Positions 12,466-52,000 of a stretch of 64,000 nucleotides of DNA are shown here, piece after piece (position 1 is the stretch's first letter; the number at the start of each line of letters is the position of its first letter). The position numbers and the translations under genes are program-made. The notes beneath the pieces were generated by a model, which was given only the letters and a program-made list of their open reading frames with translations, was not told the origin of the DNA and made no database searches. The stretch is from Polytrichum commune (lineage: Eukaryota > Streptophyta > Polytrichopsida > Polytrichales > Polytrichaceae), in the NCBI GenBank assembly GCA_950295325.1, contig OX485804.1, positions 31,992,001 through 32,056,000 on the forward strand. The letters run 5' to 3'.

Positions 12466-12479
12466 GATAGATAGAAACT

Positions 12480-19943: not shown

Positions 19944-19985
19944 TGGTCCGGGGTTGGATTCTATGTCTCCGCATTTTAGTAATTC
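19944..19985 (-). other. 2A ribosome-skipping motif, element A
   Basis: Encodes LLKCGDIESNPGP. The D-I/V-E-x-N-P-G/P core is the full consensus of 2A peptides, where the ribosome fails to join Gly to Pro and releases the upstream protein. It sits between the basic repeat region and the APE-RT part of ORF2, so the enzyme would be released as a separate protein starting with Pro. Confidence 0.9.
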
Positions 19986-20219
19986 TAGTTTGTTAGTGAA
20001 GTAGTATCCGTGGAAGTGAATTATGTTGGGGTTTTTCATGTTTGTTTTTAGATATATTGTGATTGTACATTTGGTTGTGGAAAATAGGTTAGGTATAGCG
20101 GGTATGGTTTTTTCTATTTGTATGGGTGAGAAGTGTGGTTTCGTATTATTTGTAGATTTTTGGCTTGTTATTGAGTTAGGTTTCCAATTATTTATGAAGT
20201 GGTATTTGTTATTCTTTGT

Positions 20220-20246
20220 GTGGCGAGGCCGGTAGGCCGAGGCCAT
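20220..20246 (-). repeat. MASAYRPRH module start, element A copy 2
   Basis: GC-rich 27-bp word starting ATGGCCTCGGCC and ending CCTCGCCAC, identical to the copy at 21,660-21,686. Context AC(A)ATGG fits a plant start codon. The module continues about 60 residues (W.PNSIT, IP.IP, TK) and leads directly to 2A. Confidence 0.8.
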
Positions 20247-21659
20247 TGTGTTTTTTGGGTGGGGTTGGTATTTTATATGAGGGCTTAATAGGTGTTTGAT
20301 TTTGTTATGGTGTTCGAAGCTAAGGTAGGGTTTATTTTTGGAGCATTTGTTTTGTAGGTGTGCTTTGGCATTTGTTGAGAGGTGAGGTTGGTATGTTGAG
20401 GTTGCTTTGTTTTTCGGGTTGGCTTTTTGTTTAATATGTATGTTTAGTTTTGGGTAGGGGTGGTTTTTGGGGAATGGTTTGTGGTTTTGGTGGGTGTTGT
20501 ATTTAGTTGTTAGGTGTGTATGGGAGTTGTCTTGGAGTACGTGTTTTGTAGTTGTGCTTGGTTTCCATTTGGTTGTGATAGGGTTTGGTTTGTGGTGAAG
20601 ATGGTAGGTCACGGTCATTTCGTAGTTTTGACATAATTTGTTTTTCAAGTGGAGGTTGGGTTTGGAGCTAGGGTATGGTGTGCTTTTTGAGCTTAGGTTG
20701 GGATGTATTTTAGATAGTGGATGGGGCTCTAGGTTAGGTTGGTTTTCTTGCTTTGGGTGGGTATTATGTTTTGGGCATTGTTGTGGATGCACTTTGTTTT
20801 TTAGGTGGAGTTTAACTTTTGAGTGTATTCTATATTTCGGATGAAGTTTATTATTTGGATGAGAGATGTGTCTTAGATGGAGTCTATGTTTTGGATGAGG
20901 TATGTATTGTGAGCGAAGTTGGGGGTGTTTGTGGTTTGGGGATAGTTTGGTTTTTGGATGAAGTTTGTGTTTTAGGTGGACTTTGTAATTTGGGTGTAGC
21001 TTGTTTCTTGGATGGAGATTGTGCTTTAAGTGGGGACTATATCTTATGTGAGGGTAGTATATTGGGTGGGACCGTGGTGGTTTTTGTTTTGGGTGGGTAT
21101 GTTGTTGTGGGGGGGATGTTATATTTCTTAGTTGATTGGGTGGAGGGTAATTGATTAGGTTAGGGTAGGTTCCTAGTACATAATGTGGGTTATGTTTTGG
21201 ATGAGATATGTATTTTGGGTAGTTTATGTATTTTGGATGGGATCCGTGTCTTGGATGAAGGAGGTGCCTTGGATGTGGTATGAATTTTGAGTATTTAACG
21301 GAGTCCGGGTTGTGTATTATGTTATTTGATTGTTTAGGTGTGAGGGAGGGTTTTAGTTTTGCGTACGTCCTTTGTTTAGGATGCAACTTATATTTTAGAT
21401 GTGGTTTGGATGTAAGATGAAGTTTGTTTGTTGGTATGGTGAAGGTATCTTTGATTTGGATGCATGATGAAGGTATCTTTGGTTTGTTCTTGTTTGATTT
21501 GTGGTATTTGTTTGGTGTGTATTTTGTTATTGGGGGGGTGATGGGTGGGGTGGGTATAATGTTTTTTAGTTGTTTAGGTATGGATTGTAATTTTGTATGT
21601 TTGCTTGTAGTTAGGTTAGTTCCCCAATATTGTGTAAAATTATTTTTGTATTTAGTTTT

Positions 21660-21686
21660 ATGGCGAGGCCGGTAGGCCGAGGCCAT
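21660..21686 (-). repeat. MASAYRPRH module start, element A copy 1
   Basis: Same word as at 20,220-20,246, within otherwise drifting A/C-rich repeats. The following residues share W, T, IIP and TK positions with the other modules. Context AAAATGG is a strong plant start context. Confidence 0.8.
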
Positions 21687-21837
21687 TTTGTTTTTTGGGT
21701 ATTTTTTGTAATTTGAGTGGAGATTGGTTTTTGGGTGTGGTTGGTGGTATACAAGGGGTTTAGTTTTGGCGGATGTTATGCTTCGCCTTTGTTTGAATAA
21801 AATATATGTGTAATTAATTTTGTGTATTGTATGGGAT

Positions 21838-22330
21838 TTGTATTTTGTTTGAGTATAGTGCTTTGTTTGAGTGTAGTGTTTTGTTTGGGTGTAGTGTTGT
21901 GTTTGAGTATAGTGCTTTGTTTGAGTGTAGTGTTTTGTTTGGGTGTAGTGTTTTGTTTGAGTGTAGTGTTTTGTTTGAATAAAGTATTTTGATTGAATAG
22001 AATTTTTTGCTTGAGTGTAGTATTTTGTATGGGTATAGTGTTTTGTTTGGGTATAGTGTTTTGTTTGAGTATGGTGTTTAGTTTGGGTATAGTGTTTTGT
22101 TTGAGTATAGTGTTTTGTTTGAGTATAGTATTTTGTTTGGGTAAAGAGTTTTGTTTGAGTAGAGTGTTTTGCTTGACTATAGTATTTTTCTTGAGTATAG
22201 TATTTTGTTTGGGTATAATATTTTGATTGAGTATAGTATTTTGTTTCGGTATAGTATTTTGTTTGGGCATGGAATTTTGTTTGAGTAGTGTATTTTTCTT
22301 GAGTATAGTGTTTTGATAGAGTAGAGTATT
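21838..22330 (-). repeat. 18-bp coding minisatellite (YTQTKH repeats)
   Basis: About 27 imperfect copies of an 18-bp unit, on the minus strand AAACACTACACTCAAACA and variants, encoding a six-residue repeat such as K-H-Y-T-Q-T. The phase is kept, so the protein repeat is kept too. It lies at the N-terminal part of ORF2 in element A; elements B and C lack this exact array. Confidence 0.9.
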
Positions 22331-22543
22331 TTTGCACGTATAAAGTAGATAACTTGTATTTCATATGGTATTTTGGACATTGTGGAATACTATGAGAAAT
22401 GCGATGGTATCTAGTATTTATTCTATGTGTAAGATTATATAAAATACTCTGTGTAATACTATGTTTAATACTATGTCTAAATACTTGTATGTATCTGAGA
22501 TAGTATTGTTGTAAATACTCTTGTTTTACCCGGCGATTTGTGG

Positions 22544-24301
22544 TCAATCCACATTTGGCAAGTCTTTTATCATAAGATTTGGGTTTACCAACCCAGTAAT
22601 TTGTTGCATCCCGGTAAGTGCCATAGTCAATGTGCTTTGGATGTCCAACATTTGCTTCTTCAATTTCTCATTGATATCATCTACATAGTTGTGGGCCTCT
22701 TTGACTATGTCCTCCTTCAAGACCTTCATCTCTTCGTGTAGTTCAAGCTTGAGTTTCTTGTTACCTTCTTCAATGGCCTCCTTCATGATGGTGAAGACTT
22801 CGCTTTTGGTAGCATTCTTCTCACCTTGGTTTTGGTTTTGGATTGCTTCAATGGTGTTCACCAAGCAAGTGTTAGTATCTTCAAATCCAAACTTGACCAA
22901 CAAATCTTTGGAGGGTTTGTCAATACCATCAAGACTTCTACGGTGTGGAGTGATTTCCACATGATAAACACTAATTTTTTCCTCTTTTCCTACAAACTTT
23001 TTGTATACAAAGGGGTTGAGGCATTCAACATTTGCACTACCATTGTGTCTAATTCCATCTTGCTTATGGAACCAAATAGAGACAACATTCTTGGTTCCAA
23101 GTATCTTGCAAATTTTAAGAGATGTGTCATCTATGCTCATCAATGTGGGAAGGTTGTAGAAGGTGAGGGTTAGAGCTTCTTTCCTTTGTTTTTGCTCCAA
23201 TGTGAGAGAAGGCCCTTTGTTCACTTGTCCTTCCAAAATTTCATGGTGGGTTGCAACTTGAAGTGTTTGGATTTTCTTGGCTTATGAGGGGGTTGGTGCA
23301 ACAATGTAAGCATGATTGTTGGGAGTGCTCTTTTGCACCTCTACAATCTCAAATTCATGACCTCTCCTAAAACTATTCTCTAAAACATCTTTGAAAAGCA
23401 TGTGTGAGGAGACATCAATCAAAGTTTCGCTAGTGATTTTGATTGAAAGGTTGTTGTTCCTAGCTATGGAGTGGTAAGTCTTGCATACCTTCCCAAGAGT
23501 ACCTTGGGTTGATTTGGGGTCCAATTGAAGAATGAATGGTCTAAGTCCTTTCAACAAGGCCACACCATCAATTTCGGGGTGGAGAAGGTGAAGTTTGGCA
23601 ATTCCCGCCCAAACTCCTTTCTCCCCACCTCTCTTGACATTCATGCACATGATAGATATGGGCTCAATAAGGTTAGTACCAAGTGGTATTTGCATAATCT
23701 CAAGTCTTTTCCTTACTAGTTCTTTCACATGGTTGTGTAGGAGAGGGGTGTTCGGTAATTGGAATTCAATTGCAACATGGAAGTCCAAAGCTAGGCATGT
23801 ATTGGGATCAATTGGGATATCATATGGAATTTGTGTTAGGTTGAGGTGTTGTCCAAGGACACCATCCTCTCTCTTACCTGGGTAATAGATTTGGGGTATC
23901 CTTGGGAAGGATATTGCGACCCCCTCCATTTCTTCCGTTTCCTTCCTTGGTACTCCCCTAAGTACCCTATCTTCAATGGATTCACCATCAAAGAGCTCTT
24001 CCAACCCCTCTTCCATAGCCAATTTCTCCATGTTAATGAAACCATACCAAAATTTTTGACGGAACCTTCGTTCCGGGACAATAGAATTTACTTGTGTGGC
24101 TTGTGGGCGTCGTTGTGGGGTTTGGTGTAGGGATTTGTTCGGTGTTGCCTTCTCCCGGGTCCTCTTGGTGCCAATTTCCTTCGCAGTTTGGTTCTCCTTT
24201 GCCTTCTCCGCTAAGAGCCGCATGAGGTTTTGTGAGGGTGTGTCTACCTCCATGTTGTCATCATCTCCTAAGATGGGCCGGTATGTGGACGGTGATGCCA
24301 T
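22544..24301 (-). pseudogene. Element A ORF1, RRM-like nucleic-acid-binding protein, one stop
   Basis: Homologous along its length to the intact ORF1 of element B. The start at 24,301 (MASPSTYRP) is chosen because homology to B begins there; upstream codons are leader. It has an acidic N-terminus (DDDNMEVDTPS), a middle domain with WYGF and LNLTQIP, and a C-terminal RRM-like fold (LTFYNLP as RNP2-like, GSANVECL as RNP1-like). A coiled-coil stretch (EEGNKKLKLELHEEMK onward) follows. It lacks the zinc knuckles of many plant LINE ORF1 proteins. A single in-frame TAA at 23,282-23,284 replaces a Gln codon of B. It would coat LINE RNA. The stop codon overlaps the beginning of ORF2. Confidence 0.85.
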
Positions 24302-25892
24302 GTTTTTTGGTTGGGTCGCGGTGGCAGCAACTCCCCTCTTTGATGTTGGGTGGGATCCTCCGCAGCTCCGGAGCAGCTCCCAGCAGTGCCTCGGCAACAA
24401 CTTCAGCGGCTTCGGATTTGTGTGGCTTCTGTTCTTCACTTTACCTTTGGCAGCTCCAGCAGCTTCCCAATTGCTATAGCAATTTGTCTTGGTTGTGATT
24501 ACAGTAACTTCACCTTCGGTGCTGCACCAACAAATTCGCTTCCGGGTGCAGCCTCCTTTACAGTAGCAGCAGTAACTCGCTTTCGGATGCAGCGACACTT
24601 CGTTGCCTGGCTGCAGCAACGGTCAAAAAAATTTCGACTCAATCTACTGTGCCTCTTATTTCGAACTAGTTTTGCTGGGTCGCTCTTCTCTCCTTCTGGA
24701 TCTTCCCTCAATCTTCTCTCCTTCGGGCGCTTCGACTAACTACACCGCCTCTATTTCGGTCTAGTTTTTGCTGGATCTCTCTTCTCTATCCGAACTCTGT
24801 CTTTGTGGGTCGTAGTCTTTTGTATCTAGTGAGGATTTCTATGCCAACACTGGGACTTTGAAGATCTATGTGTTTCACTGGGGTTTCGATGATCTAGCTA
24901 TTTCAACTCTGGGATTTCCAGGGAAACGGGCGCTTCGGTGATCAATCTGTGTGATCTCTGGGACTTCTGAGATGCACGTTCTTCGGAGTAGACTTCGCTG
25001 GGATTTCGGTGGTCTATCTGGTCCGGATCGGGATGGTGTCGGTGCGGTGAAGGTGGAGCCTCTGTCGAGGCAGGGCTCCCAATTAGTATATGTTGTCTCC
25101 GTTGGTGCAGCAATTTGTCCGTCTCAGTTGAGTCATGGAATCACAGGGAGGGAGAGAGAGCCGACTGTAAGCAAAAGAGAAGGTGAGGGTGGTTATCTGT
25201 AGAGATAGTGTCGGTTGCTGCTGCACCGCAGATGCGCTTCTTCTGTATGCAGTCGCTTGAAAATGGTGAGTTGGGGTGCTTGTGCTTATGGTGCAGTGTG
25301 GGTGAGGATTTGCACCTGTGGGTTGCCTAGGTTGACGCTCAGGGTGAGGTGGCTGCGGGCTGAGTAGTGATGCCGATCCAAGATAGTTGCCTCCCCCCGC
25401 AGATACCAGATTTGTCCTCTTGTGGATCCGTAATAGTTGGTGTGCTCGAATGAACTCAGAAACTCGAGGTTACAGATCTGCAGTCACAAGAGTGTACATA
25501 TCTTAGGTGCACTGCGACACTACCCAACGTACTTGCTTCCCTCGCTCGCCCAGATCAGGGAAATTCACCGTGGGGTTTTGACGCGATCTCGCATTCTCTC
25601 GCGAGACTCTCTAGAAAATCCCCGTGAATTGCAAGTGTAGTGATAGCAGCCACCTCAAATCTGCAGAACAAACTCAGCTTTCAGTCGCAACCACCATCTG
25701 AGTTCAATCTAGTCCACTAGCATGCCCGCAGGTGATATTCCTCACACCGATCTATGAGGAACCCAGCTTTCTCTCATCGATCTCCTGCATCAGCTGTCGC
25801 ACCCCTCCTCACTGATCTGCTCTCAGCTACTCATCCCGCTCCTGAATAGTAGGTACTCTTGTTTTGTTCCCCAGCCCACACACTTGAAACAA
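24302..25892 (-). promoter_or_regulatory. Element A 5' UTR with degenerate repeats
   Basis: A 1.6-kb GC-richer leader between the 5' target duplication and ORF1. It contains two related blocks (CTAC...TTTCG...CTAGTTTT...CTCTTCTCT) about 97 bp apart at 24,640-24,790, and looser TGGGATTTC/GATCTA words to about 25,020. LINE promoters are internal to the leader, so the promoter should lie here. Open frames reaching in from ORF1 lack support from the sister copies. Confidence 0.6.
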
Positions 25893-30684: not shown

Positions 30685-31836
30685 GGACCGTGTATGGGGT
30701 GCAAACGCTGCTGAGAGCTCCGTAATTCCTGGTGAGGTGAGCGACGAAAGAGGTAGCCGCTGGAGACTTATGTGTGTGCTGCTGAGGAGCTGGCTTTGCA
30801 GTGACCCCGCGCCCACTAGAAACCAGACGGTTAGAGCGTTTGGAGAGGTGCTTGGCAGTGTTGAGGGGTACCGTGTAAGTTCAGTTTTAGATCTGGTGAT
30901 GTAGGTATGAGGAAATGCCAGTTAAATCTTAACGGGAAAGCACTCTGATGAGCTGGGGCTTTGTTTGGTTGTGATTAGGAGAACTGCATTTCGCTACTGA
31001 TATTGCTTAGATCTGAAACTGTACGCATCACATTGAAGGGAGGAAACAAGCACCAAGGACTCAAACATTCTGATACTCTAGAATTGCCACACTGAGCCAG
31101 GATTACACTTTACAGAATAGACAGAGAATTGCACAGGAGGAGCCGAAGGCTCCTTCTTTCCTTCATACACATTGTCATTACATTATCCTTGCTTCTTACA
31201 CATAGCATAGATGCATGTCAACTAGGTCTAGAATCACATTTTTGGCACAAAGGAGATCTGCAGGTGGAGGGTTCAGCCACTGGTGGAGGTGATTCATACA
31301 GCACATGGAGCAGTGAAGGGGTTGTAGCAGAAAATCGAGGTGGTGGTGAAAAAGGAGGAGATCTAGCAAAACAACAATGCCCAGATCTACATCAAAGACC
31401 GACATCAAAGAGCACAAAGCTACATCAGAACCACCAAGACTTTAACCCTGCAGGTCTAAAGAGAAGACATCTCCGAACTCCAACGCCGAAAACCCTGCAT
31501 CGAACCCACACTAACTCTATACACGCAGATCTGAAGAGCAGGCGCCCCCGAGCTACAACATCGAAAACCCTGCATCGAACCCACACTAACTCTATACACG
31601 CAGGTCTGAAGAGTAGGCGCCCCCGAGCTACAACACCGAAAAGCCTGCATTGAATTCACAGTGTCTCTACAACGCCGAAAACCCTACATCGAACCCACAC
31701 TAACTCTATACGCGCAGGTCTGAAGAGCAGGCGCCCCCGAGCTACAACACCGAAAACCCTGCATCGAATTCACAGTGTCTCTAACCCTACAGGTCTTACT
31801 AACTGCTACCGCCCCCGCAACACAGCGCAGATCAAG
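30685..31836 (+). promoter_or_regulatory. Element B 5' UTR
   Basis: A 1.15-kb GC-richer leader before the ORF1 ATG at 31,837. It should hold the internal promoter. The last 400 bp carry tandem repeats (separate entry). A possible splice donor GTGTAAGT occurs near 30,870, without a clear partner. Confidence 0.6.
31441..31796 (+). repeat. Tandem repeats in element B leader
   Basis: A unit of about 75 bp (CGAACCCACACTAACTC ... GGCGCCCCCGAGCTACAAC ... CGAAAACCCTGCAT) begins at 31,501, 31,576 and 31,690. A shorter 39-bp variant with GAATTCACAGTGTCTCTA is inserted between and repeated at the end. Such arrays in LINE leaders often act as promoter units. Confidence 0.85.
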
Positions 31837-33642
31837 ATGACCACAACAAGGGCCCCCCACCGAGACAACAACATAGGAGCTGGAAGAGAGCTGACCCCTA
31901 AGGCCCTAGCTAAGGTCTTTGGGGAGGAGGAAGACACTATGGAGATAGACTCCCCATCACTGAGCCTAAAAAAGCTACTGGCCGAGAAAGCTAAGGTGAA
32001 TTCAAAAGCTGCAGCCAGCGGGAAGAGATCCAGGGACCGGGCCAGAGCGTCCCCTCCTTCGAACACCCAGCAAGTGACCTCCCCCCGCACTGGGACCCAT
32101 GCCACAGAGCTATCACCGAACCAAAAACTCAAGCTTTGGCTAGGCTTTGAATCTATGGAAAAACTTGCCATAGAGCAAGGGATTGAAGAGCTGTTCTCAG
32201 ATGAAACCACTGCTGATAGAATCACAAGGGGCATCCCTCGTATGGAAGCCGAGGAACTTGAAAGTGTAAGCATTTCCTACCCAAGAGTGCCACAAATATT
32301 GTATCCAAGTGTGAGAAGTGATGGACTCCCGGGGCAGCACCTTAACCTCACCCAGCTCCCATCCAAAATTGAAATTGACCCCATCTCTTGCATGTCTCTA
32401 GATTTTCAAATTGCCATTCATTTTCAGCTCCCTAACAACCCCTTATTCCACAATCACATTAAAGAGCTTGTTAAAGAAAGGCTAAATGTCATGCACATTC
32501 CACTTGGTACTAACCTCATTGAACCTATCTCAGTTTTATGCATGAGTATCAAGAGAGGAGGGGTCAAGGGAGTGTGGGTTGGGATAGTTAAACTTCACCT
32601 CCTCAACCCCCAAACCGATGGAGTAGCCCTACTCACGGGTCTTAGACCCTTCATCCTTCATTTTGAACCTCACTCCAATGGTGGAAGCCTTGGCAAGGTA
32701 TGCAAGTCATACCACTCCATTGCTAGGAACAATAATCTTTCTATCAAAATCTCAAATGATACATTGATTGGATTGTCACCTCATGCTCTCTTTCTTGATG
32801 TCCTAGAAAATAGCTTTAGAAGAGGTCACAATTTTGAGATTGTTGAAGTTCAAAAAAGCACCACTAACAACCATGCCTATCTTGTTGCCCCTACCCCCCT
32901 TCAAGCCAAAAAAATCCAAACTCTTCAAGTTGCTACCCACCACCAAATCCTTGAAGGCCAAGTGAAGAAAGGCCCCTCTCTCACATTGGAGCAAAAGGCA
33001 AGGAAAGAGGCCCTTATCCTAACCTTTTACAACCTCCCAATATTGATGAACATTGATGACACCTCATTAGAAATTTGCAAAATACTAGGAACCAAGAATG
33101 TTGTTTCTATATGGTTCCACAAGCAAGACGGTTTGAGGCATAATGGCAGTGCCAACGTGGAATGCCTTAACCCCTTTGTATATAGGAAATTTGTAGGGAA
33201 AGAGGTAAAAATCGGAACTTACCATGTGGAAATTACTCCTCACCGCCGGAGTATTGAAGGCATTGACAAACCCTCCAAGGAATTACTAATCAAATTTGGA
33301 TTTGAAGACACCAATACGTGTTTGGTAAACACTATTGAAGCCATTCAAAACCAAACTCAAGGGGAGGAAAGTGCTACAAAAGGGGATGTTTTTACCGTCA
33401 TGAAAGAAGCTATTGAGGAAGGCAACAAGAAACTCAAACTTGAGCTTCATAAAGACATGAGAGAATTAAAAAATGATATTGTGAGAGAAGCGCACATATA
33501 TGCGGATGAAATAAATGACAAATTGAAAAAACAAATGCTAGACATCCAAAGTACTCTAACCCTAGCACTTACCGGGATGCAACAAATTACCGGCTTGGTA
33601 AATCCTAACCTCATGCTTAAAGACCAACCAAATGTGGAGTGA
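31837..33642 (+). CDS. Element B ORF1, RRM-like protein, intact
   Basis: Intact 601-aa ORF1 starting with a true ATG (MTTTRAPHRD). It has an acidic DTMEIDSPS segment near residue 32. A central domain of about residues 90-360 carries LWLGF, LNLTQLP and a conserved NSFRRGHNFEIVEVQKS. An RRM-like domain follows at about 385-490 (LTFYNLP, GSANVECL). A coiled coil with many K/E/L heptads spans about 525-570. No CCHC knuckles or known enzymatic motif. The role is expected to be RNA binding and RNP assembly, as for ORF1 proteins of LINEs, and is inferred. The TGA stop overlaps the ORF2 frame (GTGACC), one base back. Confidence 0.88.
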   Translation: MTTTRAPHRDNNIGAGRELTPKALAKVFGEEEDTMEIDSPSLSLKKLLAEKAKVNSKAAASGKRSRDRARASPPSNTQQVTSPRTGTHATELSPNQKLKLWLGFESMEKLAIEQGIEELFSDETTADRITRGIPRMEAEELESVSISYPRVPQILYPSVRSDGLPGQHLNLTQLPSKIEIDPISCMSLDFQIAIHFQLPNNPLFHNHIKELVKERLNVMHIPLGTNLIEPISVLCMSIKRGGVKGVWVGIVKLHLLNPQTDGVALLTGLRPFILHFEPHSNGGSLGKVCKSYHSIARNNNLSIKISNDTLIGLSPHALFLDVLENSFRRGHNFEIVEVQKSTTNNHAYLVAPTPLQAKKIQTLQVATHHQILEGQVKKGPSLTLEQKARKEALILTFYNLPILMNIDDTSLEICKILGTKNVVSIWFHKQDGLRHNGSANVECLNPFVYRKFVGKEVKIGTYHVEITPHRRSIEGIDKPSKELLIKFGFEDTNTCLVNTIEAIQNQTQGEESATKGDVFTVMKEAIEEGNKKLKLELHKDMRELKNDIVREAHIYADEINDKLKKQMLDIQSTLTLALTGMQQITGLVNPNLMLKDQPNVE

Positions 33643-36067: not shown

Positions 36068-36083
36068 ATAGATAGATAGAAAC

Positions 36084-36294: not shown

Positions 36295-36455
36295 AACGCC
36301 AAGTCATGATTCCTCGGTTGGTTGTGGGAGGATGTTTGAGTTAAGACGTTCCGGGTTCGATTTCAGTCGAGTCCGTATGATCGTCTAAAATGTAACGCGT
36401 GACTTGGTGCTGCAAGTGAGTAAAAGGCAGGAAATTTGTACCAACCAACCGGCAC
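36295..36455 (+). mobile_element. tRNA-derived SINE inside the 3' UTR of element C, antisense
   Basis: Nearly identical to the SINE in element A: CTCGGTTGGTTGTGGGAGG A-box region and GGTTCGATTTC B box, then ATGTAACGCGTGACTTGG. Same position and orientation in the LINE as in A. Confidence 0.6.
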
Positions 36456-39400: not shown

Positions 39401-42400
39401 TTGGTGGATGGTGTTGTTGGTATGGTAGGGGGCATTGATTACAAGGGGGGGTGGCAAAATAATTGATTAGCTATGTTAAGTGCGCTTTTGATAAGTTTAG
39501 AAGGAGTGGAGTGGTAGATTTTGAATTCGTCCGGGTTCATTAGAGTGGTACCATTAGGCATGGTAATTTGGTCTAGTGTGATTATATTATGTACAAGTAG
39601 TTTATGGAGTAATTTAAGTGAGGTGTTGGGATTTAGTCCATGAAGCATTTGTGCTTCCTGCATCCATGCAGTTTCAAGTGGGGATGAGGTTAGTAGGAAA
39701 TTGTTTATTGTATTTTTTAGGTGGACTCCGGCTTTATGTTTAAGCAAGAATAATGTTCTAGTGATGGGTGATCTAACGCAGTGGTGATATTTAATGCGGG
39801 TGATTTCCTTAGAGCCCCCATATTTGGCGAGTATGAATTGTAGTAGACCAACATATATTTTCCCAATTCTACCTTTATCATTGAGGGCGTTTTGTAGTTG
39901 TTCTCCAATCCATCTTAAATAGGCATTTTGTAGTGAGAATGCTTCGATTCCGAATATGTTGTGTGGGAGTTGTGTAGCGATGTTAGATGTGCATTTGGGT
40001 ATTCCGCATATCGTTTTGTAAAGTGCTATGATTTTTTTATCGAGTTTTTTGATAGCTGGTATGGAGTATGGCACTGCGTAGAAGCTGTATGCTATTCCAG
40101 CACGTATGACTGTATCTGCCATGTTTATTTTTTGTTTCATAGTAGCTGGGCATATTACAAGGGCTTGACACTGTTTTATTACTTTAGCTGTAGTGGTATT
40201 TATTTGCGTTTTCCATTTGAGTGATGGTGCAAGATTTATTCCTAGATACGTGTATGGTTCATGTTGGTTTAAGACTGGTATAGGTTGGTTTCTGTAGTTG
40301 ATATTGGTAGATTGGATTAAGGCTTTGAAGGTTGTGGGGTGAAGTTTGGATTTGTTTGGGCATCCAGTTATTGCGCACTTGGGTATTCCAAGATCCATTC
40401 CTGCCCATTCGCAAAATTTGTCTAGTTTGTTGAGTTGTGTTTGTAGTGTCTCTAGTTTATTGGCGATTGCTGCTAGGTCATCTGCATATGCTGCTGATGA
40501 GATTTTAATTTTAGATGTACCAAAAGTGTATCCATTATTCCCTTGTTGTAGCCATCTGAGGAGGGGTTCTAGGAATATGATAAATAGATATGGGTTAAGG
40601 GTATCACCTTGTATTGTGCCTCTTTGAATGGGGATTGGTAAGGTTTTACCGAAGTGTTCACCAGTGAATATTGTTGAGGATTGTGAATATATGTTTCCTA
40701 TGAGATTTATGGAGTCAGTGGGATATCCCAGATCTTTCATTATGGCTAAAAGTCTGGCGTGATCAATGGAGCCGAAGGCGGTTTTTAAGTCAATGTAAAG
40801 GATATATATATCTTTGTTCGTGAGTCTTGCATCTTCAAGTGCTGCGATTAATAATTGGATTTCTCTAGAAGTGTTTCTTTCTGCTCTAAACCCTTCTTGA
40901 CTATCGTGTAATATTTGGTATTTTACTCCATACGCTGATAGGATAGAAGTTAATGTACTCGTGTAGAATTTATATATGGTATTAGCTAGTGCAATAGGTC
41001 TATGATTTGTTAGTTGTGATGAGTTACCTTTTTTGTATAGTAAAATTGTTAGACTGGTTTTCGATGAAGCAGGGATTTGTTTTTGTTTATAACAATGTTT
41101 AAAAAATAGGAAAAGTAATTTATGGAAGCCTGGAGGCATGTTTTTTAGAATTGAATTAGGTATTTTGTCTGGGACTGGGGCTTGTTATTACTTAGGTTTT
41201 TAAGACAAAAGTTGTATATTTCTTGGTCAAAATACGTGTGTAGGGCGGTTTGGGGTTCTCCTCGTTTGTCAATGATGTATCCGTCTAAGGCATGCCATGG
41301 ATATTGCCGGACTCCACATGTGCAGTGTAGTGGGTGTGTATTTTGATATTGGCATGTGGGAACTGTAGGGCGATTGCTGATGGATTGTTGCGTGTATATT
41401 TCTGCTACGATGTCTTCTGGGTTAGTTAATATATTGTTTTGTCTATCAATGATGGAGTCCAGGGGTGAGGTTTCAGTGTTCTTGAAGATTTTTCGATTTA
41501 TCTTTTTGGGGTTTTTTTCATACATTTGACGGTATTTTGATACGGCCTTTAGAATGCAGTCTTTGGTGTATTTTGTGGTAATTTTCCTGGCTTCCTTATT
41601 TTCATTTTTTGCGATGGTTGCTATGGCATCAATCCATTCAGTAGGAGATGTCGTTATAACATGTGGGTGTGGGATGTTTGTGTGTTGGTGGTTTCGTATA
41701 TCGGTGAGGATGGGGTGTGCTTGCCAGAGTGGATCGTGTTGTGCATGCCAGAGTGGATCGTGTATGTGTTGAGGTGTTTTTTCCATTTTCTCGCAAGTTT
41801 GCGTGACAAAAACCTACCTTGTTGTGATGTTCTGTTCGTAAGGTTGGGTAGTGGGTCTGCTTTACAAGTTTCTTCAATTGTTTTTGAAATTTTATATACA
41901 ATGTGGTCGAATGTTGTACAGGCTTCCGCCCATTGATCCGGGCTTAAGTGTTGGTATTTTTCGAGTATGGTGGTAAGGGCTTTTATTTGTGCAGAGTTTT
42001 CTTCGAAGAATGTTATGTTGAATTTTTCGATGTTTTCTGGTAGTATTGGGTTTAGTATTCTAGTTGGTGACGTGTTTGTGGGGGGTGGGGATCTGGCTAT
42101 AAGGGTGTTGTGGGGGATATGTAGTACAACTGGATAATGGTCTGAGTTTAGATTCATGTTTATGTTTGTGGTAGAAATGAATTTGTTGTTGTCCGGTAAA
42201 TGAATGTAGAATCCATCTATTAGACTTGTTGATGTGTAATTATAGCCTCCTTGTCTGGAGATGCTAGTGTTAGTTGGGATATATTATAGGTTGAGTGATG
42301 CGGTGAAATTTTTCCATTGGTAATCTTCTTCTTGTGGGGGGGTGTTAATGTTGTTATTTTGTCTGCCTCTAAGTGCGATATCTCGGTTAAAGTCCCCACA

Positions 42401-43525
42401 TAATGTATACATGTGATTGGGGTGTATAGTGATTTCGTTAGTGATTTCGTTCTTAAGGTGTGGAATGAGGCATGTGTCTTCTAAGTGTGTAGGCATGTAC
42501 ATATATATGATTAGCCAAGGCATTAGTGGATGGTTGTTTATTTTAATTATTTGTAGGTATGGGGATATATTTACTGGCGTGGGAATTTTGGTGATATTCC
42601 CATGAAATGCATATTTCTTGTGGATAAGTGTGAGTAAGCCTCCTCTTCCGGGAGTATAAGGCATTCTTTGTTGTATGCATCTTGTGAGTGCATGTGTGTT
42701 GTTGAAAATGAGTTTAAATTCCGGAAATAGGTTTTGTATGTATTTTGTAGATTTATTTGCAGTTAGTTTGGTTTCTTGGATATGTATGATTGATGTGTTG
42801 TTTAGCGAGTTGTTTATTAGGCTTTGTAGGTTTGGTAATGATGTGTTGAGTGATGACTCATTCCATGTTATTATGTTTGTTTCGTGCTCGGTGTCGGTGT
42901 TAATTCTTGGGGTTGGTGTGGGAGTAGCTGGGGGTGGGGGTGGGTGTGAATATTCGTTGATGCTTTCTAGGCATCGGAGTGCTTCGGTGATCAATTGATT
43001 TGGGAGGAAGGGAAATTTATTTTGAAGGGTGATTGGTGTTGGTGTAGTATCTTGGTTGTGGATAAATTCATATATCTTTGTGTGTATTGAATTTTTTGGG
43101 TATATTATATCTTGATTGTTTTCTACAAAAGTTGTGTAGGGGTGAGGTGTTGATATGTGCCTTTCGGGGGGGTTGGTGAGGTTGGCCAGTCTAATAATCA
43201 ATGTGTTCGTCCATATGTTATTAAAGTGGTAATTTTGGGGTTGGGCTAGTATGTTATTGCATGTGTCTATTGAGGGGTGGATGGTGATGATTAAAGCGTA
43301 TAGCATATGGGTTAGTGGTGATTGCCTTTGTGTTTGGATATATTGATGTAGATGCGGGTAGGTGGTTATTGCTTGAGGATGTAGTGGGTGTGTGTTTTTT
43401 AGTATGGGGGCAAATGTGTTTGCTATGTGTTGGTATTCAGGTTGTAGTTTTATAGTGTTTGAAATGAAGTAGATGTTGGCTCTTTTTTTGTGTGTACCAG
43501 GGTGTGTATGTAGGATGTTAGGCAT

Positions 43526-43567
43526 TGGTCCAGGGTTGGGTTCTATGTCCCCGCATTTTAGTAATTC
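43526..43567 (-). other. 2A ribosome-skipping motif, element C
   Basis: Encodes LLKCGDIEPNPGP, the same place as in element A. Only the residue between E and N differs (Pro for Ser), a position that is free in the 2A consensus. Confidence 0.9.
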
Positions 43568-43801
43568 TAGTTTGTTAATAAAGTAGTATCCGTGGGAATG
43601 GAGTGCTTTTGGATTTTTCATGTTTGTTTTTAGATATATTATGATTGTGAACTTGGTTGTAGTAAAGAGGTTAGGTATAGCGGGTATGATGTTTTCTATT
43701 TGGTTGGGTGAGAAGTGTGAGTTTGTATTTTTTATAGATTTTTGGCTTGTTATTGAGTTAGGTCTCCAGTTATTTATAAAGTGGTATGTGTTATTATTTA
43801 T

Positions 43802-43828
43802 GTGGCGAGGCCGGTAGGCCGAGGCCAT
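43802..43828 (-). repeat. MASAYRPRH module start, element C
   Basis: Same 27-bp word as in A and B. Context ACAATGGCC equals the preferred plant start context. This is the module that runs into 2A. Confidence 0.8.
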
Positions 43829-44101
43829 TGTATCTTTTGGGTGAGGTTGGTATTTTGAATGAGGGTTTAATAGGTGTTTGAAATAGGGTTTGTGATGGTG
43901 TTTGATGTTGAGGTGAGGTTTATTTAAGATGAGTAGTTTATATTTACTTTTTGTGAATAGATTAGGTAAGGCAATTATTGTTTTTTGTGTAGTTTTTGGG
44001 AGGTAGTGTATAGGTTTAGTATGTTGGTGGGTAGGCTTTGTGATTGTGTTAATGATGGGGTTGAGGGAGTAGTAGTGTATATATCTTGTTAGTTTTATTT
44101 T

Positions 44102-44128
44102 GTGGCGATGCCGGTAGGCCGAGGCCGT
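44102..44128 (-). repeat. MASAYRPRH-type word, element C upstream copy, ATG lost
   Basis: The GC-rich word is kept but starts ACGGCC rather than ATGGCC and has CATCGCC for CCTCGCC. A second, decayed module start before the active one. Confidence 0.7.
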
Positions 44129-44364
44129 ATTGTGTACTTTGTTGTGTTGGATAGGATATTGTTGTATTGTGAGTAAATAGATTTGTTTTTGTGAGGTGTT
44201 GGGGGGGTTTTTTTTGTGAATTTTTTATGTTATAGTATTCATGAATACTATAGGTAGGGTTTTATTTTTATTATATATTAATAATTTAATTATGTTTTTG
44301 TTTTTAGTATATAAATATACTATAAGTAATTTATAATTGTACGCCGCCGGGATGTTTGTCGAAA

Positions 44365-46563
44365 TTAGTTTGTCAAGTCCATATTGTTTTCAATTTCCGA
44401 TATGTCCGGATGAGCCGCTTCGATAGCATCCAAGGTAATCTTCATTTGCCTTTGAAGGAGTTGTATTTGGAGCTTGGAATTCTTGTTTGACTCCGCTTGC
44501 ACATGGTCGGCATAAACTTTTGCCTCTTGCACAATCTCACCTTTAAGGTTCACAATTTCCTTTCGTATTTCATCCGTCCTTTTTTTTACCGCTGCTTCTA
44601 CCATCTTGTTGAGATATTTGTTGGTAATGTTTTGGTGCGGTCCATTCTCCAGAGCTTGGATGGTGTTTGCAAGTGCGGTGTTCACGTCTGAAAATCCAAG
44701 TCTAACTAGCTCTTCTTTACTAGGTGCATTTATCCCGTCTAGACTTTTTGGATGGGGGGTAAATTCAACATATTTACCAAATATTTTTTCATTTTTCTTA
44801 ACAAATTTCTTGTAGACAAACGAGTTGAGGCATTGGACATTGCATGAGCCCGTATGCTTCCCATTCTCAAGTCTAAAGTAAAAACCGAGAACATTTAGTT
44901 CTCCCATGCATTTTCGGATTCCTTCTTCGATTTGCATGGTTGTTTTTACCTTATTGAGGTTACGGGCAATTAGAATGAGTGCATTCTTTCGGGCTTTATC
45001 ATCGTCTGAGAGTTTTTCGTTACTTGCAAAGTTTACATCTATTATTTCATTGAAAAACGAAAGTTTGAGTGCTTTAATTCTTTTGGCTTCCTCTAGAGAG
45101 GGTGCTTTGATCCAAGCAAACTTTGCATCCGCCGATTTTTGCACATTCGTTATTTCAAAGTCAAGGCCTCGTCGAAATCCATCCCCAACTATTTCTACAA
45201 ACAAATCATACCATTCTTTACCCTTGATTGACGGGGTTGTGACTTTGACGGAGAGCATGGATGCAATTGCAATGGTATCAAAGGATTTGCACACTTTGCC
45301 TATAGCATGTGTAAATTGGCCAAGCTTGAGGATGAAAGGTCTCAATCCACAGAGAAGGCCATATCCATCCATTTCAGAGTTTTTAAGGTGGAGTTTAATA
45401 ATTCCACTCCATCTTTTGGTCCCATGAAAACAAAGGACAACTATGGGCTCCCCTAGGACTTCCCCGACCTCTATCTTCATTTTTTTTAGTCTATCCTTTG
45501 TTAAGTTGAGTATCACATCTCTATCCAATTCTATTCTTTCAATTTCAAAATGGATAGATATGTGATAGTCCAAAGCAAATCCATGGTCACCCACTTCCAC
45601 ATCTAAAGGAATCTGGGTGAGATTGTAGTGCATTCCCTCCTTACCATCCGTTCGTATAGAAAGCCACTCTTCTTGGGCAACGAACAGAAAGGAGGGAGAT
45701 GACTCCATCATTTCATGTGCTTCAGACTCACACATATCTTTTTTTACTAACTCAGTGAAAGAAGGTGTTTGAATGAGAGGCATGTTGGCAAATTTTGCAA
45801 TTGTGTTCATAGCTTGAAAACCAAGCCAATAGGGAGGCCATGTTCTCTCAGTGGGTACTATTCCTTTAACCTTTTTTTGACTTGACAATACCACATCAAG
45901 CACTGGACGTTTTCCACTTGTAGAATCTATATTTTCATTTTCAAACAACTTACGGGATGATGAGGTTGGAGTGATGGTTGCCATTCTGATATAAGCAAAG
46001 CAAACAAACGTTTTGTACTTTAGTTTTGAATGAGGTATACTTCTTATTTTCTTTCCTCTAATTCCTTTCCACAAATTAAGTTGTGGGCCTCCTAGGAATT
46101 GAGAGTGAAAGAAGAAGTGATTTGCATGTTCTAACATCATATGAGTACTAGTATGAGTACAACTTGCATTCATCCTATAACACCTTTTCCTATTCATATG
46201 AATCTTCATATTAGTATTTACAAATTGGTTGTAAGTGCTCTTATGTAGATTATGATTTGTCACAACTCTAACATTCCATACATTTCCTAAGCATTTGAGG
46301 CAAGTATAACTAAAAGCACAAGCATCTACCGTTACTACCACGGATCCATTATTTCTAATGGAACATTCATTTATGATATGAACATTAAGGTTGTTATACC
46401 ATACCTTTGGATTTATGACGTTCTTATATGTGTTTTTAAAGCAAGAGTTTGTAAGGCATTCCCATGTGGTGTGAGAGTTGACACTATGAGAGTATATCCA
46501 GTATGGTGTGGCTAGTACTAGCCACATAATGATAACAAGGTAGGTTGCATATGCAACCTTCAT
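44365..46563 (-). CDS. Element C ORF1, distant RRM-like type, with secretory N-terminal extension
   Basis: 732 open codons. From residue 194 (MATITPTSS, ATG at 45,984) it is distantly homologous to ORF1 of A and B: YNLTQIPLDV, DGFRRGLDFEITNVQKS, an RRM-like part (LIARNLN, GSCNVQCL) and a C-terminal coiled coil with VQEAKVYADH. The first ~193 residues have no counterpart in A or B: MKVAYATYLVIIMWLVLA looks like a signal peptide, followed by eight cysteines and NGS/NAS glycosylation sites. A strong splice donor at 46,666 (G|GTAAGT) and acceptor at 45,986 (ATATCAG|AATGG) would remove this part and place the ATG at 45,984 right behind the junction. Which form is made is unknown. Confidence 0.75.
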   Translation of the reverse strand: MKVAYATYLVIIMWLVLATPYWIYSHSVNSHTTWECLTNSCFKNTYKNVINPKVWYNNLNVHIINECSIRNNGSVVVTVDACAFSYTCLKCLGNVWNVRVVTNHNLHKSTYNQFVNTNMKIHMNRKRCYRMNASCTHTSTHMMLEHANHFFFHSQFLGGPQLNLWKGIRGKKIRSIPHSKLKYKTFVCFAYIRMATITPTSSSRKLFENENIDSTSGKRPVLDVVLSSQKKVKGIVPTERTWPPYWLGFQAMNTIAKFANMPLIQTPSFTELVKKDMCESEAHEMMESSPSFLFVAQEEWLSIRTDGKEGMHYNLTQIPLDVEVGDHGFALDYHISIHFEIERIELDRDVILNLTKDRLKKMKIEVGEVLGEPIVVLCFHGTKRWSGIIKLHLKNSEMDGYGLLCGLRPFILKLGQFTHAIGKVCKSFDTIAIASMLSVKVTTPSIKGKEWYDLFVEIVGDGFRRGLDFEITNVQKSADAKFAWIKAPSLEEAKRIKALKLSFFNEIIDVNFASNEKLSDDDKARKNALILIARNLNKVKTTMQIEEGIRKCMGELNVLGFYFRLENGKHTGSCNVQCLNSFVYKKFVKKNEKIFGKYVEFTPHPKSLDGINAPSKEELVRLGFSDVNTALANTIQALENGPHQNITNKYLNKMVEAAVKKRTDEIRKEIVNLKGEIVQEAKVYADHVQAESNKNSKLQIQLLQRQMKITLDAIEAAHPDISEIENNMDLTN

Positions 46564-46666
46564 TTTGCTTACTATCCTAACAAACCTATCAATGCTATGA
46601 TGTGTCTAAGACTATGTGTGTGCCTATGTGCAAATAATGAGAAAACAAATTAACGTGTAAACTTAC
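45986..46666 (-). other. Possible 5' intron of element C overlapping the ORF1 extension
   Basis: Donor CTTG|GTAAGTTT at 46,666 and acceptor TTTGCTTTGCTTATATCAG at 45,986 match plant consensus. Removal leaves the ORF1 start MATITP two bases into the next exon. The region is open in the ORF1 frame from 46,563. Inference from splice signals only. Confidence 0.5.
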
Positions 46667-49016
46667 CAAGCGGATGAAGGGCAGCAAAACTACTTCTACT
46701 TTTAGGGAGCAAAAAAGAAGCTAAGTGCCTAGTTAACTAATGTGTGTGTGTGTGTTTCTAATTGATTAAGTGTGTATCTACTGTGATTTTAGTTTGTTCC
46801 TTTGTGTGTGTGTTCTCTGTATGTCTAAGTGCCTATCTAAGTGGGGGTTTTGAGTGATACCTGGTTTAGCACGGGCAGTATTTTGTTGGAGTTGCTCCTC
46901 TCCTTCGCAGCACCTCGAACTCCCTCCTACCTGGGATGGGGTTTTGTCGCACAGTGATCCTTCAGCAGCTCGACTTCTGTTGCGCCTCCAGTAGCTCCAA
47001 AGTTGATCACACCTCCGCAACGGCTATTGTTTAGTCGGCGGCAGTCGACGGCAATCAGCGTCAGTAGGCGGCAGTTCGCGGCAGTTTTACTGCAGACTGC
47101 GGGCAACAGTAGACTGCAACTCTCTTACCAACACTGTTTGCTGCTAGCTGATTGAACACTGTGTCCGGGGCAGTAGATGTTTTGGTTAATCTCTTGTTGT
47201 AACAACTATCTTCTCTGCCCAATGGATACTTCTTTGGTTTCTGTAGGACTCTCTAAGTGTTACTCAATCAGTTTCTTCGAGAGAAGGCCGGTATTTGGCT
47301 CTTGAGTCTAAATATCATAAAACCTTAATCTCAATAATGACTTTCTATGATTCCCTTGCTACTATTCCGGGAGTGTAGTTTGTGTGTACGTTCTAAGATT
47401 AATTGAAAGATATGAGATCTAAAGAAGATGATGGGTGCTACTTCTCTCAAATGGATCTAAGTTACACAAGAACTTGATTTCTCCACAAGAATGGGTTACT
47501 ACGATTCTTTTGTAACTATTCCAGAAGTATAGTGTGTGTGTAGGATCTAAGATAATTTGAAAAGAGATGAGATTTAAAGAAGATGATGGGTGGTGCTCCT
47601 CTCAAATCGATCTAAGTTTTACAAAAACTTGATTTCTCCTCAAGAATGGGTTACTACGATTCCCTTGAAACTATTCCAAAAGTGTAGTGTGTGTGTAGGA
47701 TCTAAGATAGATTGAAAGAGATGAGATCTAAAGAAGATGGTGGGTGGTGCTTCTCTCCGATGGATCTAAGTTTTACAAAAACTTGATTTCTCCTCAAGAA
47801 TGGGTTACTACGATTCCCTTTCAACTATTCCAGAAGTAAAGTGTGTGTGTATGATCTAAGATAAATCAAAAGAGATGAGATCTAAAGAAGATGGTGGGTG
47901 GTGCTTCTCTCCGATGGATCTAAGTTTTACAAAAACTTGATTTCTCCTCAAGAATGGGTTACTACGATTCCCTTTCAACTATTCCAGAAGTAAAGTGTGT
48001 GTGTATGATCTAAGATAAATCAAAAGAGATGAGATCTAAAGAAGATGGTGGGTGGTGCTTCTCTCCGATGGATCTAAGTTTTACAAAAACTTGATTTCTC
48101 CTCAAGAATGGGTTACTACGATTCCCTTTCAACTATTCCAGAAGTAAAATGTGTGTGTATGATCTAAGATAAATCAAAAGAGATGAGATCTACTACTACT
48201 ATTCAGTTATGAGATCGAGAAAGCTTCTGTAACTCTTTCAGTAACATAACACACATCTCCTGATCTATGTTGTCTTACAAAACTCTCACTGTTGCGGTCT
48301 CTCACTTCGTATCAAGGGGTTGAAAAGAGTTTCGGTGCAGCGTGAAGAGTTTCGAACTTTCGGTGCAGGCAAGGTTTTTGGTGCCGATTCGAGTGTCTCT
48401 GGTCCGTTGCTGCCGTAGTCTGTAGCAGCTCCGGGTGGTGAGGCAGTGGGTATCGCGACTTCGGCTCGGTAGTCCCCCGGTGAAAATCGGTGCTCGTCCG
48501 CTTCAGTGGCTCTTCTCCGGCGGCGATCTGCTTCGGTGCTTCTGGTAGTCAGTCGGTTCTTCTTTCCTTTTCGCAGCAGCTCTCCTCAGTGTTGCATCGG
48601 CAGTGGGTCTCTTCGTCAACACGGGCAGTTTCTACTATGGCAACTATGCAGGAGAGTGGATCTTGTAACACTATGAATCTGTGAGATCTATAGTGAGCAG
48701 TTTTGGGTGATCTAAGGTGGAGCTGAGATGAGCATCTGCAAGAAAACACACAAGAAGCAATAGAGAGTGTTGATAGGAAAACACGGTGAATGAGCTGGTT
48801 TGTGGGGCTTCTGGGGGAAGAGAGGGCGCAGAGGTTTTATATTGTTGCGTGGTGTCTCTTTGGTGTTTGGAAGAGGTGGGTGGCCGGGGAAGAGTCAAAG
48901 GAGCAACAGTTTGCCGCTCTTACCTTGACTCTTCCCCTACCTCCTACAGCCTCCCCGTCACACCTCCCAAGCTCCACTAGCCGCTCATTCTCCCATTGAT
49001 ACGCATAATGAATCAT
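46564..49016 (-). promoter_or_regulatory. Element C 5' UTR
   Basis: A 2.45-kb leader, the longest of the three. Contains a GT microsatellite near 46,741-46,755, CGGCAGT words at 47,035-47,110 and the 154-bp tandem array. The internal promoter is expected here. It shares no obvious sequence with the leaders of A or B. Confidence 0.6.
47246..48193 (-). repeat. 154-bp tandem array in element C leader
   Basis: About six units. The word GAGATCTAAAGAAG (or close) starts at 47,414, 47,569, 47,723, 47,877, 48,031 and 48,185, giving a period of 154-155 bp. Units 3-5 are nearly identical; the outer ones are diverged, as expected for arrays that grow from the middle. Likely promoter repeats of the LINE. 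Confidence 0.93.
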
Positions 49017-49028
49017 CCACATAAATAA
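49017..49028. repeat. Target-site duplication of element C, 5' side
   Basis: CCACATAAATAA, same as 36,056-36,067. The sequence after it continues element B ORF2 without loss. Confidence 0.95.
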
Positions 49029-52000
49029 CACATACCACTTCATAAAAAACTGGAAACCTAACTCAATAACAAAACCACTATCTACAAGCAACGCAATGTC
49101 ACACTTCTCACCCGAACTAGTAGAAAAAACCACACCCGCCATGCCTAACCTCTTTACCACAACCAAATTCACATTTTTGAAATATCTTAAAATAAATATG
49201 AGAAAACCAAAAATACTTCAATTCTACGGACATTACTTCATTGACATACTAGATCTACTAAAATGCGGGGACATCGAACCTAACCCGGGACCAATGCCTG
49301 ATATTCTACGAACACACCCTATTACACACAAAAAAAGAGCCAACACGTATTTTATCCCAAATACTATAAAACTACAACTTGAATACCAACACCTAGCAAA
49401 TACATTCGCCCCTATCCTAAAACACACACACCCACTACACCTCCAAGCAATCACCACATACCCACATCTACACCATTATACCCAAACACAAAACCAGTCG
49501 CCACCAACCCATATGCTATACGCCCTAATTATTACCATCCACCCCGCAATAGACATATGCAATAACATGCTAGCCCAACCCCAAAACTACCACTTTAATA
49601 ACATATGGACCAACACATTAATCATTAGACTAGCTAACCTCACCAACCCCCCCGAGCGACACATACTGACACCGCACCCCTACACAACGTTCATAGAAAA
49701 TAATCAACATATAATACTCCCTCAAAACTCAATACACGCAAAAATATACGAATTCATCCACAACCAAGTAACCACACCCACATCAACCACCCTCAAGAAA
49801 GAATTCTCTTTCCTCCCAAACCAGTTGATAACCGAAACACTTAGATGCTTAGAAAACATCAGCGAATACTCACACCCACCCCCACTCCCAGTCGCTCCCA
49901 CACCAATCACAAAAATAAACACCAACACCGAACATGAAACGACCATAATAACTTGGAATGCGTCATCACTCAACACATCATTACCAAACCTACAAAGCTT
50001 AATAAATAACTCTCTAAACAACACAACAATCATACATATCCAAGAAACCAAACTTACTACAAACAAATCTACGAAATATATACAAAACCTATTCCCGGAA
50101 TTCAAACTCATTTTCAACAACACACACGCACTTACAAGGTGCATCCAACAAAGGATGCCTTATACCCCCGGAAGAGGTGGCTTACTTACATTTATCCATC
50201 ACAAATATGCATTCCCGGGAAATGTCACCAAAATCCCCACACCAGCAAATATCTCCCCATATCTCCAAATAATAAAAATAAATAACCACCCACTAATACC
50301 TTGGCTAATCGTACACATGTATATGCCCACGCACTTAGAAGACACATGTCTTATCCCACACCTTAAGAACGAAATCACTAACGAAATCATTATACACCCC
50401 AATCACATATACACACTCTGCGGTGACTTTAACAGAGATATTGCACTCAGGGGCAGACAAAATAACAACACTAACACCCCCCCACAAGAAGAAGACTTCC
50501 AATAGAAAAACTTCACCACATCTCTCAACTTAGAATATATTCAAACCAACACTAGTATCTCAAGACAAGGTGGCTACAACTACACATCAACAAGCCTAAT
50601 AGATGGTTTCTACATTCACTCCCCAGACAACAGCAAATTTACCTCCACTACAAACACAAACATGAATCTAAATTCAGACCACTATCCGGTCACATTCTAC
50701 ATCCCACACAACACACTTATAGCCAGACCCCCACCCCCTATAAACACCCCACCAACTAGAATACTGAACCCGATACCACCTGAAAACCTAGAAAAATTTA
50801 ACATAACATTCTTTGAAGAAAACTCCACCCAACTTAAAGTACTTATCACACTATTACAAAACCACCAACACTTAACACCTGATCAATGGCAAGATGCATG
50901 TACATCACTGGACTACATTATAAACAAAATCTCAAAAACAATTGAAAAAACCTGCAAAGCAGACCCACTATCCAACCTTACAACCAGAACATCGCAACAA
51001 GGCGGTTTTCTACCACGCAAATAAGCTAGAGAATGGAAAAGACACCTCAACACATATCACCTCATCAGAAAAACCATTTACATAGCACAACATGACCCAA
51101 GCTGGCAAGTGCACCCCATTCTAACCGATATCCAAAACCACCAACACGTCAACATCCCGCACCCACCTGCTACAGCAGCATCCTCTGATGAATGGATTAA
51201 CACAATAGCGGCCATCGCAAAAACTGCAAATAAAGAAGCCAGAAAAATCACCACAAAATATACTAGAGACTGCATTCTAAAAGGCGTATCGAAATACCGC
51301 CAAATGTATGAAAAAAGCCCCAAGAAAATAAACCGGAAAGTCTTCAAAAACCCTGAAACCTCACCTCTTGACTCCATCATTGATAGACAAAACAACATAT
51401 TAACCAGTCCTGAAGACATTGCATCAGAGATTTATGCACAACAATCCATCAGTAACCGCCCAATAGTCCCCACGTGCCACCATCAAAATACACACCCACT
51501 ACACTGTACATGTGGAGTCAGACAATACCCATGGCACAACCTAGAAGGGTACACAATTGACAAACAAGGAGAACCCCAAATCCCCTTACACACATATTTT
51601 GATCAAGAAACCTACAACTTCTGTCTTAAAAACCTAAGTAATAACAAAGCCCCATGCCCAGACAAAATTTCCAACTCAATTTTAAAAAATATGCATCCGC
51701 GCTTTCACAAATTATTTTTCCTATTCTTTAAGCACTGCTATAAACAAAAACAAATTCCCGCATCATGAAAAACTAGCCTAACAGTTTTATTATATAAAAA
51801 AGGCAACCCATCACAACTAACAAATCACAGTCCTATTGCACTAGCTAACACCATATATAAACTTTACACAAGTACACTAACCTCTATCCTATCAGCATAT
51901 GGAGAAAGATACCAAATACTACACGATAGCCAAGAAGGGTTCAGAGCAGAAAGAAGCATCTCCAGACAAATCCAAATACTAATTGCAGCGCTTGAAGACG

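Follow-up and report, generated by a model that had tools for sequence, protein, structure and literature searches.

Peptides of the StopGo/2A type were reportedly recognized by Heras in 2006 in L1Tc of Trypanosoma cruzi and by Odon in 2013 in elements of the apurinic/apyrimidinic endonuclease (APE) type from multicellular organisms including sea urchin, and Kojima and Fujiwara are said to have described in 2005 the Dualen/RandI long interspersed nuclear elements (LINEs), which combine an APE with a restriction-like endonuclease (RLE). The available passages of the literature bear out the statement of an earlier note on this DNA that 2A is known in non-long-terminal-repeat (non-LTR) elements of trypanosomes and animals, sea urchin and other species being named (PMC4981915, PMC5972666, PMC11512398). 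Here we consider a 64,000-nucleotide stretch of Polytrichum commune (contig OX485804.1, positions 31,992,001 to 32,056,000; hereafter the window), in which three related retrotransposon copies, elements A, B and C, each encode a 2A-like peptide within open reading frame 2 (ORF2). We consider it probable that these elements belong to a large family of non-LTR retrotransposons and that the motif serves as a StopGo/2A site in their ORF2.

Several features of described systems serve for comparison, each as given in the parts of the sources at hand. StopGo is common in RNA viruses and rare in cellular genes, and the same source gives no evidence for its natural use by plant viruses (PMC12846837); 2A peptides do function in plant cells (PMC4981915). 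Dualen/RandI elements carry APE, RLE and RNase H (PMC4640811), have tails of (ATT)n or (CTATTT)n (PMC3747384, Table 3) and are hosted by green algae (PMC3747384, PMC8226300). Plant LINEs are reviewed as L1 and RTE (PMC9033089); plant L1 can carry RNase H (PMC4640811, PMC9033089), and nearly all flowering-plant L1 have a poly(A) tail (PMC3747384, Table 3).

A six-frame scan of the window for the core [DGCN][VI]E.NPGP returned exactly three matches, one in each element:

19944–19982, minus strand: 2A peptide of element A, LLKCGDIESNPGP, with the core DIESNPGP at 19944–19967
43526–43564, minus strand: 2A peptide of element C, LLKCGDIEPNPGP, core at 43526–43549
49255–49293, plus strand: 2A peptide of element B, LLKCGDIEPNPGP, core at 49270–49293

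All three encode LLKCGDIE(S/P)NPGP followed by MP(N/D)IL, in frame and at the same place in ORF2, within long stop-to-stop frames (A, 17943–22667; C, 42284–44224; B, 49012–50505). The motif and its coordinates, as first proposed in the earlier note, are thus correct, with A and C on the minus strand and B on the plus strand; plus-strand translation at the A and C coordinates gives other residues and stops, and B reads as stated. Sixty second-order Markov sequences of window length, read in six frames, contained 29 plain NPGP and no core match, which rules out a chance origin of the core. The upstream context also supports StopGo, since the LLKCG that precedes the Asp in A, B and C fits the L-rich motifs ending in (A/S/C)G before position 12 (p12) in the published account, as far as its available text goes (PMC12846837).

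Because A, B and C are related copies, with 85–88% mutual nucleotide identity over 7–8 kb, the three motifs are not independent, and independent weight has to come from homologs and from other members in the genome. Among 81 homologous proteins found with the C frame as query, 52 contain NPGP. When these were aligned with A, B and C, 63 rows covered the site, of which 55 have NPGP and 49 read D[IV]ExNPGP. In this alignment the nine core columns have a mean relative entropy of 3.96, as against 2.87 for the APE and 2.41 for the domain that follows the 2A (post-2A domain); the value is 2.42 over the eight columns directly upstream of the core and about 1.5 farther upstream, and the variable position x ranks only 363 of 482 columns. 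After a wider search (312 matches, of which 120 were listed), the 148 proteins collected in all gave 155 aligned stretches: 70 are canonical, 7 have His or Gln at p14, 3 have another form of NPGP, 20 are broken and 55 lie outside the site, so that NPGP ends 80 of the 100 site-covering stretches. In three homologs (P0038, P0043 and P0080) a single frame holds a tandem pair of 2A cores, and P0069 has a degenerate EPNPSP copy ahead of a canonical site, which suggests that the 2A plus post-2A module was duplicated.

Members within the genome (64 contigs totalling 407.8 Mb, including seven of 42–78 Mb) were collected with a 438-aa query covering the post-2A domain and the APE, with the motif at residues 17–25; the 96 scored out of 1384 candidates are the best-scoring ones and not a random draw. 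The assumption of a plant host is supported by matches to the LEAFY profile SAM_LFY, which exceeds its cut-off at four places in this genome (best 120.9 bits) and in none of 14 control genomes of unstated kind. The genome size and the seven large contigs also favour a plant, and might suit a moss. A land plant fits these data; LEAFY by itself would be compatible with a charophyte alga too. Eighty of the 96 members read D(I/V)ExNPGP at the site and eight DIKxNPGP; two have another NPGP, four are broken and two unreadable. By length of open frame, the motif is canonical in 48 of 55 members below 900 aa, in 13 members of 900–1399 aa (next to three with DIK and one broken) and in 16 of 17 of 1400–1999 aa, the remaining one having DIK; the seven with frames of at least 2000 aa comprise three canonical, three with DIKPNPGP and one with NLGP. 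The three canonical ones, each with a single 2,625-aa open frame, are mutually identical over 201 bp at the site. The earlier note had named absence of the motif from most intact members as an outcome that would speak against it. Overall the reverse is found (80/96 canonical), but among the seven longest frames only three are canonical, so that the 2A is not universal in the family. A 101-bp DNA query that includes the motif gave 38 intact cores among its 40 best matches, a sample biased by the query itself.

Codon changes relative to the commonest codon were counted in 90 distinct sequences, which represent 107 copies, 40 of them taken from the query-biased sample; the counts tally sequences rather than independent events. 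In the core GDIE-NPGP without x, 113 changes are synonymous and 17 nonsynonymous, and in the x codon 3 and 39, respectively. The corresponding figures are 179 and 271 for codons −21 to −8, 124 and 76 for −7 to −1, and 356 and 308 for +9 to +32. Since changes in the core codons are mostly synonymous while x is free and the flanks are far less constrained, the 2A peptide is, to judge from these counts, under selection in the family, as StopGo/2A predicts; the view that the core is complete with only x free thus holds in the window and in the family at large. Pairwise ratios of nonsynonymous to synonymous rates (dN/dS) among A, B and C are 0.16–0.26 at −14 to +8 and 0.40–0.97 at −70 to −14, as compared with 0.14–0.19 in the post-2A domain, 0.08–0.11 in the APE and 0.06–0.11 in the reverse transcriptase (RT). 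Together with the codon counts, they describe a constrained peptide that follows a loosely constrained stretch and has its free position where StopGo has one.

In this host the motif would be expected to act as follows. A ribosome would complete the chain up to LLKCGDIExNPG, the nascent peptide in the exit tunnel would block formation of the Gly-Pro bond, the upstream chain would be freed and translation would resume at the proline. To the extent that skipping is efficient, the 2,625-aa frame would then yield two products. The one upstream of the site would have about 235 aa, if counted from the first Met (codon 50) to the Gly; the one downstream, the enzyme, would have 2,341 aa, start with Pro-Met and contain the post-2A domain, the APE, the RT, the PCIF1-like segment, the RNase H and the RLE-like nuclease. 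The enzyme would thereby be freed from a fast-evolving, low-complexity N-terminal part, which is the likely benefit and the reason we prefer; in addition, that part would be supplied as a separate protein in a fixed ratio.

Several observations weigh against this reading. A young subfamily of six members has LLKGGDIKPNPGP (E14K), which departs from the pattern at two places; its members read LLKGG upstream, as compared with LLKCG in A, B and C. They are 97–100% identical to one another over 201 bp and about 87% identical to the canonical long-frame type, and their open frames reach 2924, 2663, 2107, 1881, 1249 and 1076 aa. In the single copy examined for it, the 480 aa upstream of the site contain no second 2A. 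Should E14K abolish activity, these elements would not need skipping in order to spread. It may be that the six members manage without it, or else that their Lys still permits skipping in this context; the variants flagged in the available part of the published survey, in which Glu to Gln kept 56% or 26% activity, do not include Lys at p14 (PMC12846837). In addition, NLGP stands at the site in one genomic copy whose open frame spans 2,327 aa, and the site is broken in 20 of the 100 homolog stretches that cover it, several with NLGP, although at least one of the 20, the second stretch of P0090, is spurious, the other stretch of this protein being canonical. Finally, Met directly follows NPGP in 89 of the 90 distinct sequences of the genome, which leaves room for internal initiation.

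These points feed two of the other explanations that may be considered. The 2A may have been active once and now be a relict or an option in the course of being lost, with recent lineages (the DIK subfamily and the NLGP copy) making a fused ORF2 protein. This would account for the three DIKPNPGP and one NLGP among the seven longest frames, and for the homologs with NLGP in place of NPGP (P0074, P0092, P0093, P0094, P0100, P0104 and P0119). It accords less well with the strong constraint on the core, with the 16 canonical members out of 17 at 1400–1999 aa, and with the three other long-frame members, whose canonical motif and identity over 201 bp are as expected for recent activity; we regard it as rather unlikely. 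Alternatively, the enzyme might be initiated at the ATG right after NPGP, the 2A-like peptide being just the end of an upstream frame and devoid of skipping activity. The nearly invariant Met would fit this, as would the fact that some predicted homologous proteins begin at MPN/DIL. However, the constrained unit is the peptide ahead of the Met, in which synonymous changes are allowed and x is free, and a diverged, mostly JGI-sourced group of homologs (P0086, P0089, P0096 and P0099) keeps the core with NPGPR or NPGPK and no Met there. Such an origin of the enzyme thus appears very improbable. A structural or protease-recognition motif of a polyprotein that resembles 2A by chance has nothing direct in its favour, and it is hard to reconcile with a pattern of fixed and free positions that is that of StopGo, with the matching L-rich upstream context and with GDIHPNPGP in four of the 63 rows (P0038, P0043, P0070 and P0080), given that a rare variant with His at p14 showed >95% activity when measured, according to the part of the survey available (PMC12846837). 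We attach almost no weight to this last explanation. StopGo/2A activity thus appears to be the best account of the motif.

The three elements are laid out in the window as follows:

12463–24622, minus strand: element A as far as traced in the 5′ direction, with the ORF1 frame at 23282–24622; alignment to C places the 3′ end near 12463
17943–22667, minus strand: ORF2 frame of A, with a repeat-rich N-terminal part, 2A, post-2A domain and APE region
13625–15235, minus strand: ORF2 of A continued in a different frame, PCIF1_WW-like segment and RNase H (Pfam PF12237, PF00075)
31654–36067, plus strand: 5′ part of element B, with the ORF1 frame at 31654–33642 and the ORF2 N-terminal frame from 33621
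49017–56539, plus strand: 3′ part of B, with the 2A/APE region (frame 49012–50505) and the RT region (51769–53343)
54018 to about 56311, plus strand: 3′ part of B continued, PCIF1-like segment (54018–54995), RNase H (54996–56033) and RLE-like part (to about 56311)
56514–56539, plus strand: (ATT)n tail of B
36068–49016, minus strand: element C, nested in B and flanked by the 12-bp repeat CCACATAAATAA
37206–46605, minus strand: parts of C, namely ORF1 frame (44365–46605), 2A/APE region (42284–44224), RT region (39439–41184) and RNase H (37206–38249)
47330–48192, minus strand: 154-bp tandem array of 5.6 copies in the 5′ region of C

The repeat CCACATAAATAA lies at 36056–36067 and 49017–49028, where the halves of B stop and resume. 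We read it as the target-site duplication of C inside B, and the extent given for C follows from this reading; the nesting goes beyond the earlier note. The 154-bp array possibly represents promoter monomers. ORF2 of A is interrupted by one stop at 17943–17945, after which the RT frame (15684–17942) continues in the same frame; the RT of A was assigned by Pfam and its APE region by alignment to homologs.

ORF1 is separate from ORF2, whose frame is −1 relative to it and opens ahead of the ORF1 stop codon, by 19 nt in B (33621–33642, plus strand) and by 22 nt in three open C-type copies (L051, L055 and L057). In open C-type copies the first ORF2 Met is codon 50 and NPGP starts at codon 282; translation of ORF2 may possibly start by frameshift, by reinitiation or at a non-AUG codon. 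Between C (44365–46605, minus strand) and B (31654–33642, plus strand) the ORF1 sequences share only 40% identity, as against 91–92% for the APE and RT parts of the two elements, which suggests that ORF1 has been exchanged between subfamilies.

The elements show a strong strand asymmetry, A and C being abundant and G and T scarce on the coding strand, with an absolute GC skew of 0.30–0.46 and AT skew of 0.22–0.34 in 4-kb windows over 12001–24000, 32001–44000 and 48001–56000. The low content of Asp (0.7%) and Glu (1.4%) in the part of A upstream of the 2A may follow from this asymmetry. Outside the elements, exons at 61137–62368 (plus strand) encode pieces of a plant-type protein family without a Pfam match, which we take to be the RPM1-interacting-protein-13 (RIN13)-like family. 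An Rfam scan and a tRNA scan gave no matches.

As to the type of element, Pfam recognizes RT in A, RNase H (PF00075) in A, B and C, and PCIF1_WW (PF12237) in A and B, the last (E 3.3e-11 in A and 2.7e-08 in B) in the part of ORF2 ahead of RNase H; the catalytic NPPF motif of PCIF1 is not apparent by eye in this segment. For the APE, Pfam gives nothing in the frames of A and C and only a weak match below cut-off in B (E 0.0089), but the A and C frames align to homologs P0012, P0038, P0096 and P0099, in which PF03372 exceeds its cut-off. An APE upstream of the RT, together with RNase H, is the arrangement expected of Dualen/RandI. C-terminal to RNase H, the columns C..C..H..C, RHN and PD...E...K..Y are conserved among 33 aligned homologs, including P0150 and P0168; this part (55600–56311 in B) is apparently an R2-type RLE, if what we take to be the RLE signature is correct. 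A profile from the alignment of the RNase H-to-RLE stretch found no RLE among solved structures; its matches, at E >0.2, were confined to RNase H and unrelated chains. Searches of solved structures with the PCIF1-like segment and with the RNase H-to-RLE stretch itself gave no match. The 2A and all that follows through the RLE-like part lie in one frame in three of the ten copies examined at length (L050, L054 and L056). In a comparison that held no Dualen reference, the RT of A scored 97.7 bits to the best R2 entry as against 56 bits to 8c8j, which we take to be human L1 ORF2p. B ends in an (ATT)n-type tail; the end of the C type combines what appears to be a hairpin with (TCTA)n. The poly(A) tail that would mark a plant L1 was not found, and neither, to judge from the RLE-like C-terminus, was the lack of an RLE; an ordinary plant L1 or RTE is rejected on the microsatellite tails, the RLE-like C-terminus and the RT scores. 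We therefore treat the element as Dualen-like, though not proven Dualen; it looks like a dual-endonuclease type rather than the usual plant LINE, a point absent from the earlier note. No relatives were found in viral and prokaryote contig collections, and a tblastn search of plasmids with the RT frame gave one weak bacterial plasmid match at 24% identity.

2A in LINEs is already known; what looks new is the plant host and the architecture. No plant LINE with 2A was found in the literature searched, which did not take in the surveys Rao 2025 and Odon 2013, and an earlier report is possible. With L1Tc and the sea urchin elements, compared by published description only and from parts of the sources, the present family shares the same core in an APE-type element, in frame with the encoded proteins. 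It differs from them in its plant host, in the placement of the site between a long repeat-rich ORF2 region and a post-2A domain of roughly 200 aa, in the tandem sites of three homologs, and in carrying RNase H and an RLE-like nuclease. With plant L1 and RTE, as far as the available descriptions go, it has APE and RT in common, as well as RNase H with some plant L1, but here these are joined by the RLE-like C-terminus, the 2A and a microsatellite tail.

The 80 canonical copies out of 96 examined, with their constrained peptide, would point to long natural use of 2A in plants, and the DIK subfamily offers a way to test whether retrotransposition needs skipping. It is tempting to propose, if only tentatively, that a land-plant Dualen-like family uses StopGo, with tandem sites in some relatives and with the site switched on or off between young subfamilies (E14/E14K); if this is true, comparing these subfamilies would amount to a natural experiment on the effect of skipping in a retrotransposon. 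The likeness to Dualen/RandI lies in an APE, RT, RNase H and RLE-like nuclease within one ORF, in a tail other than poly(A), with (ATT)n in B, and in RT scores nearer to R2 than to 8c8j. The family departs from the available Dualen/RandI descriptions (PMC3747384, PMC8226300) in its host, a land plant or close relative instead of green algae, and in its PCIF1-like segment and 2A, both absent from the descriptions compared. With a Dualen-like element, the range of LINE types known from plants would be extended.

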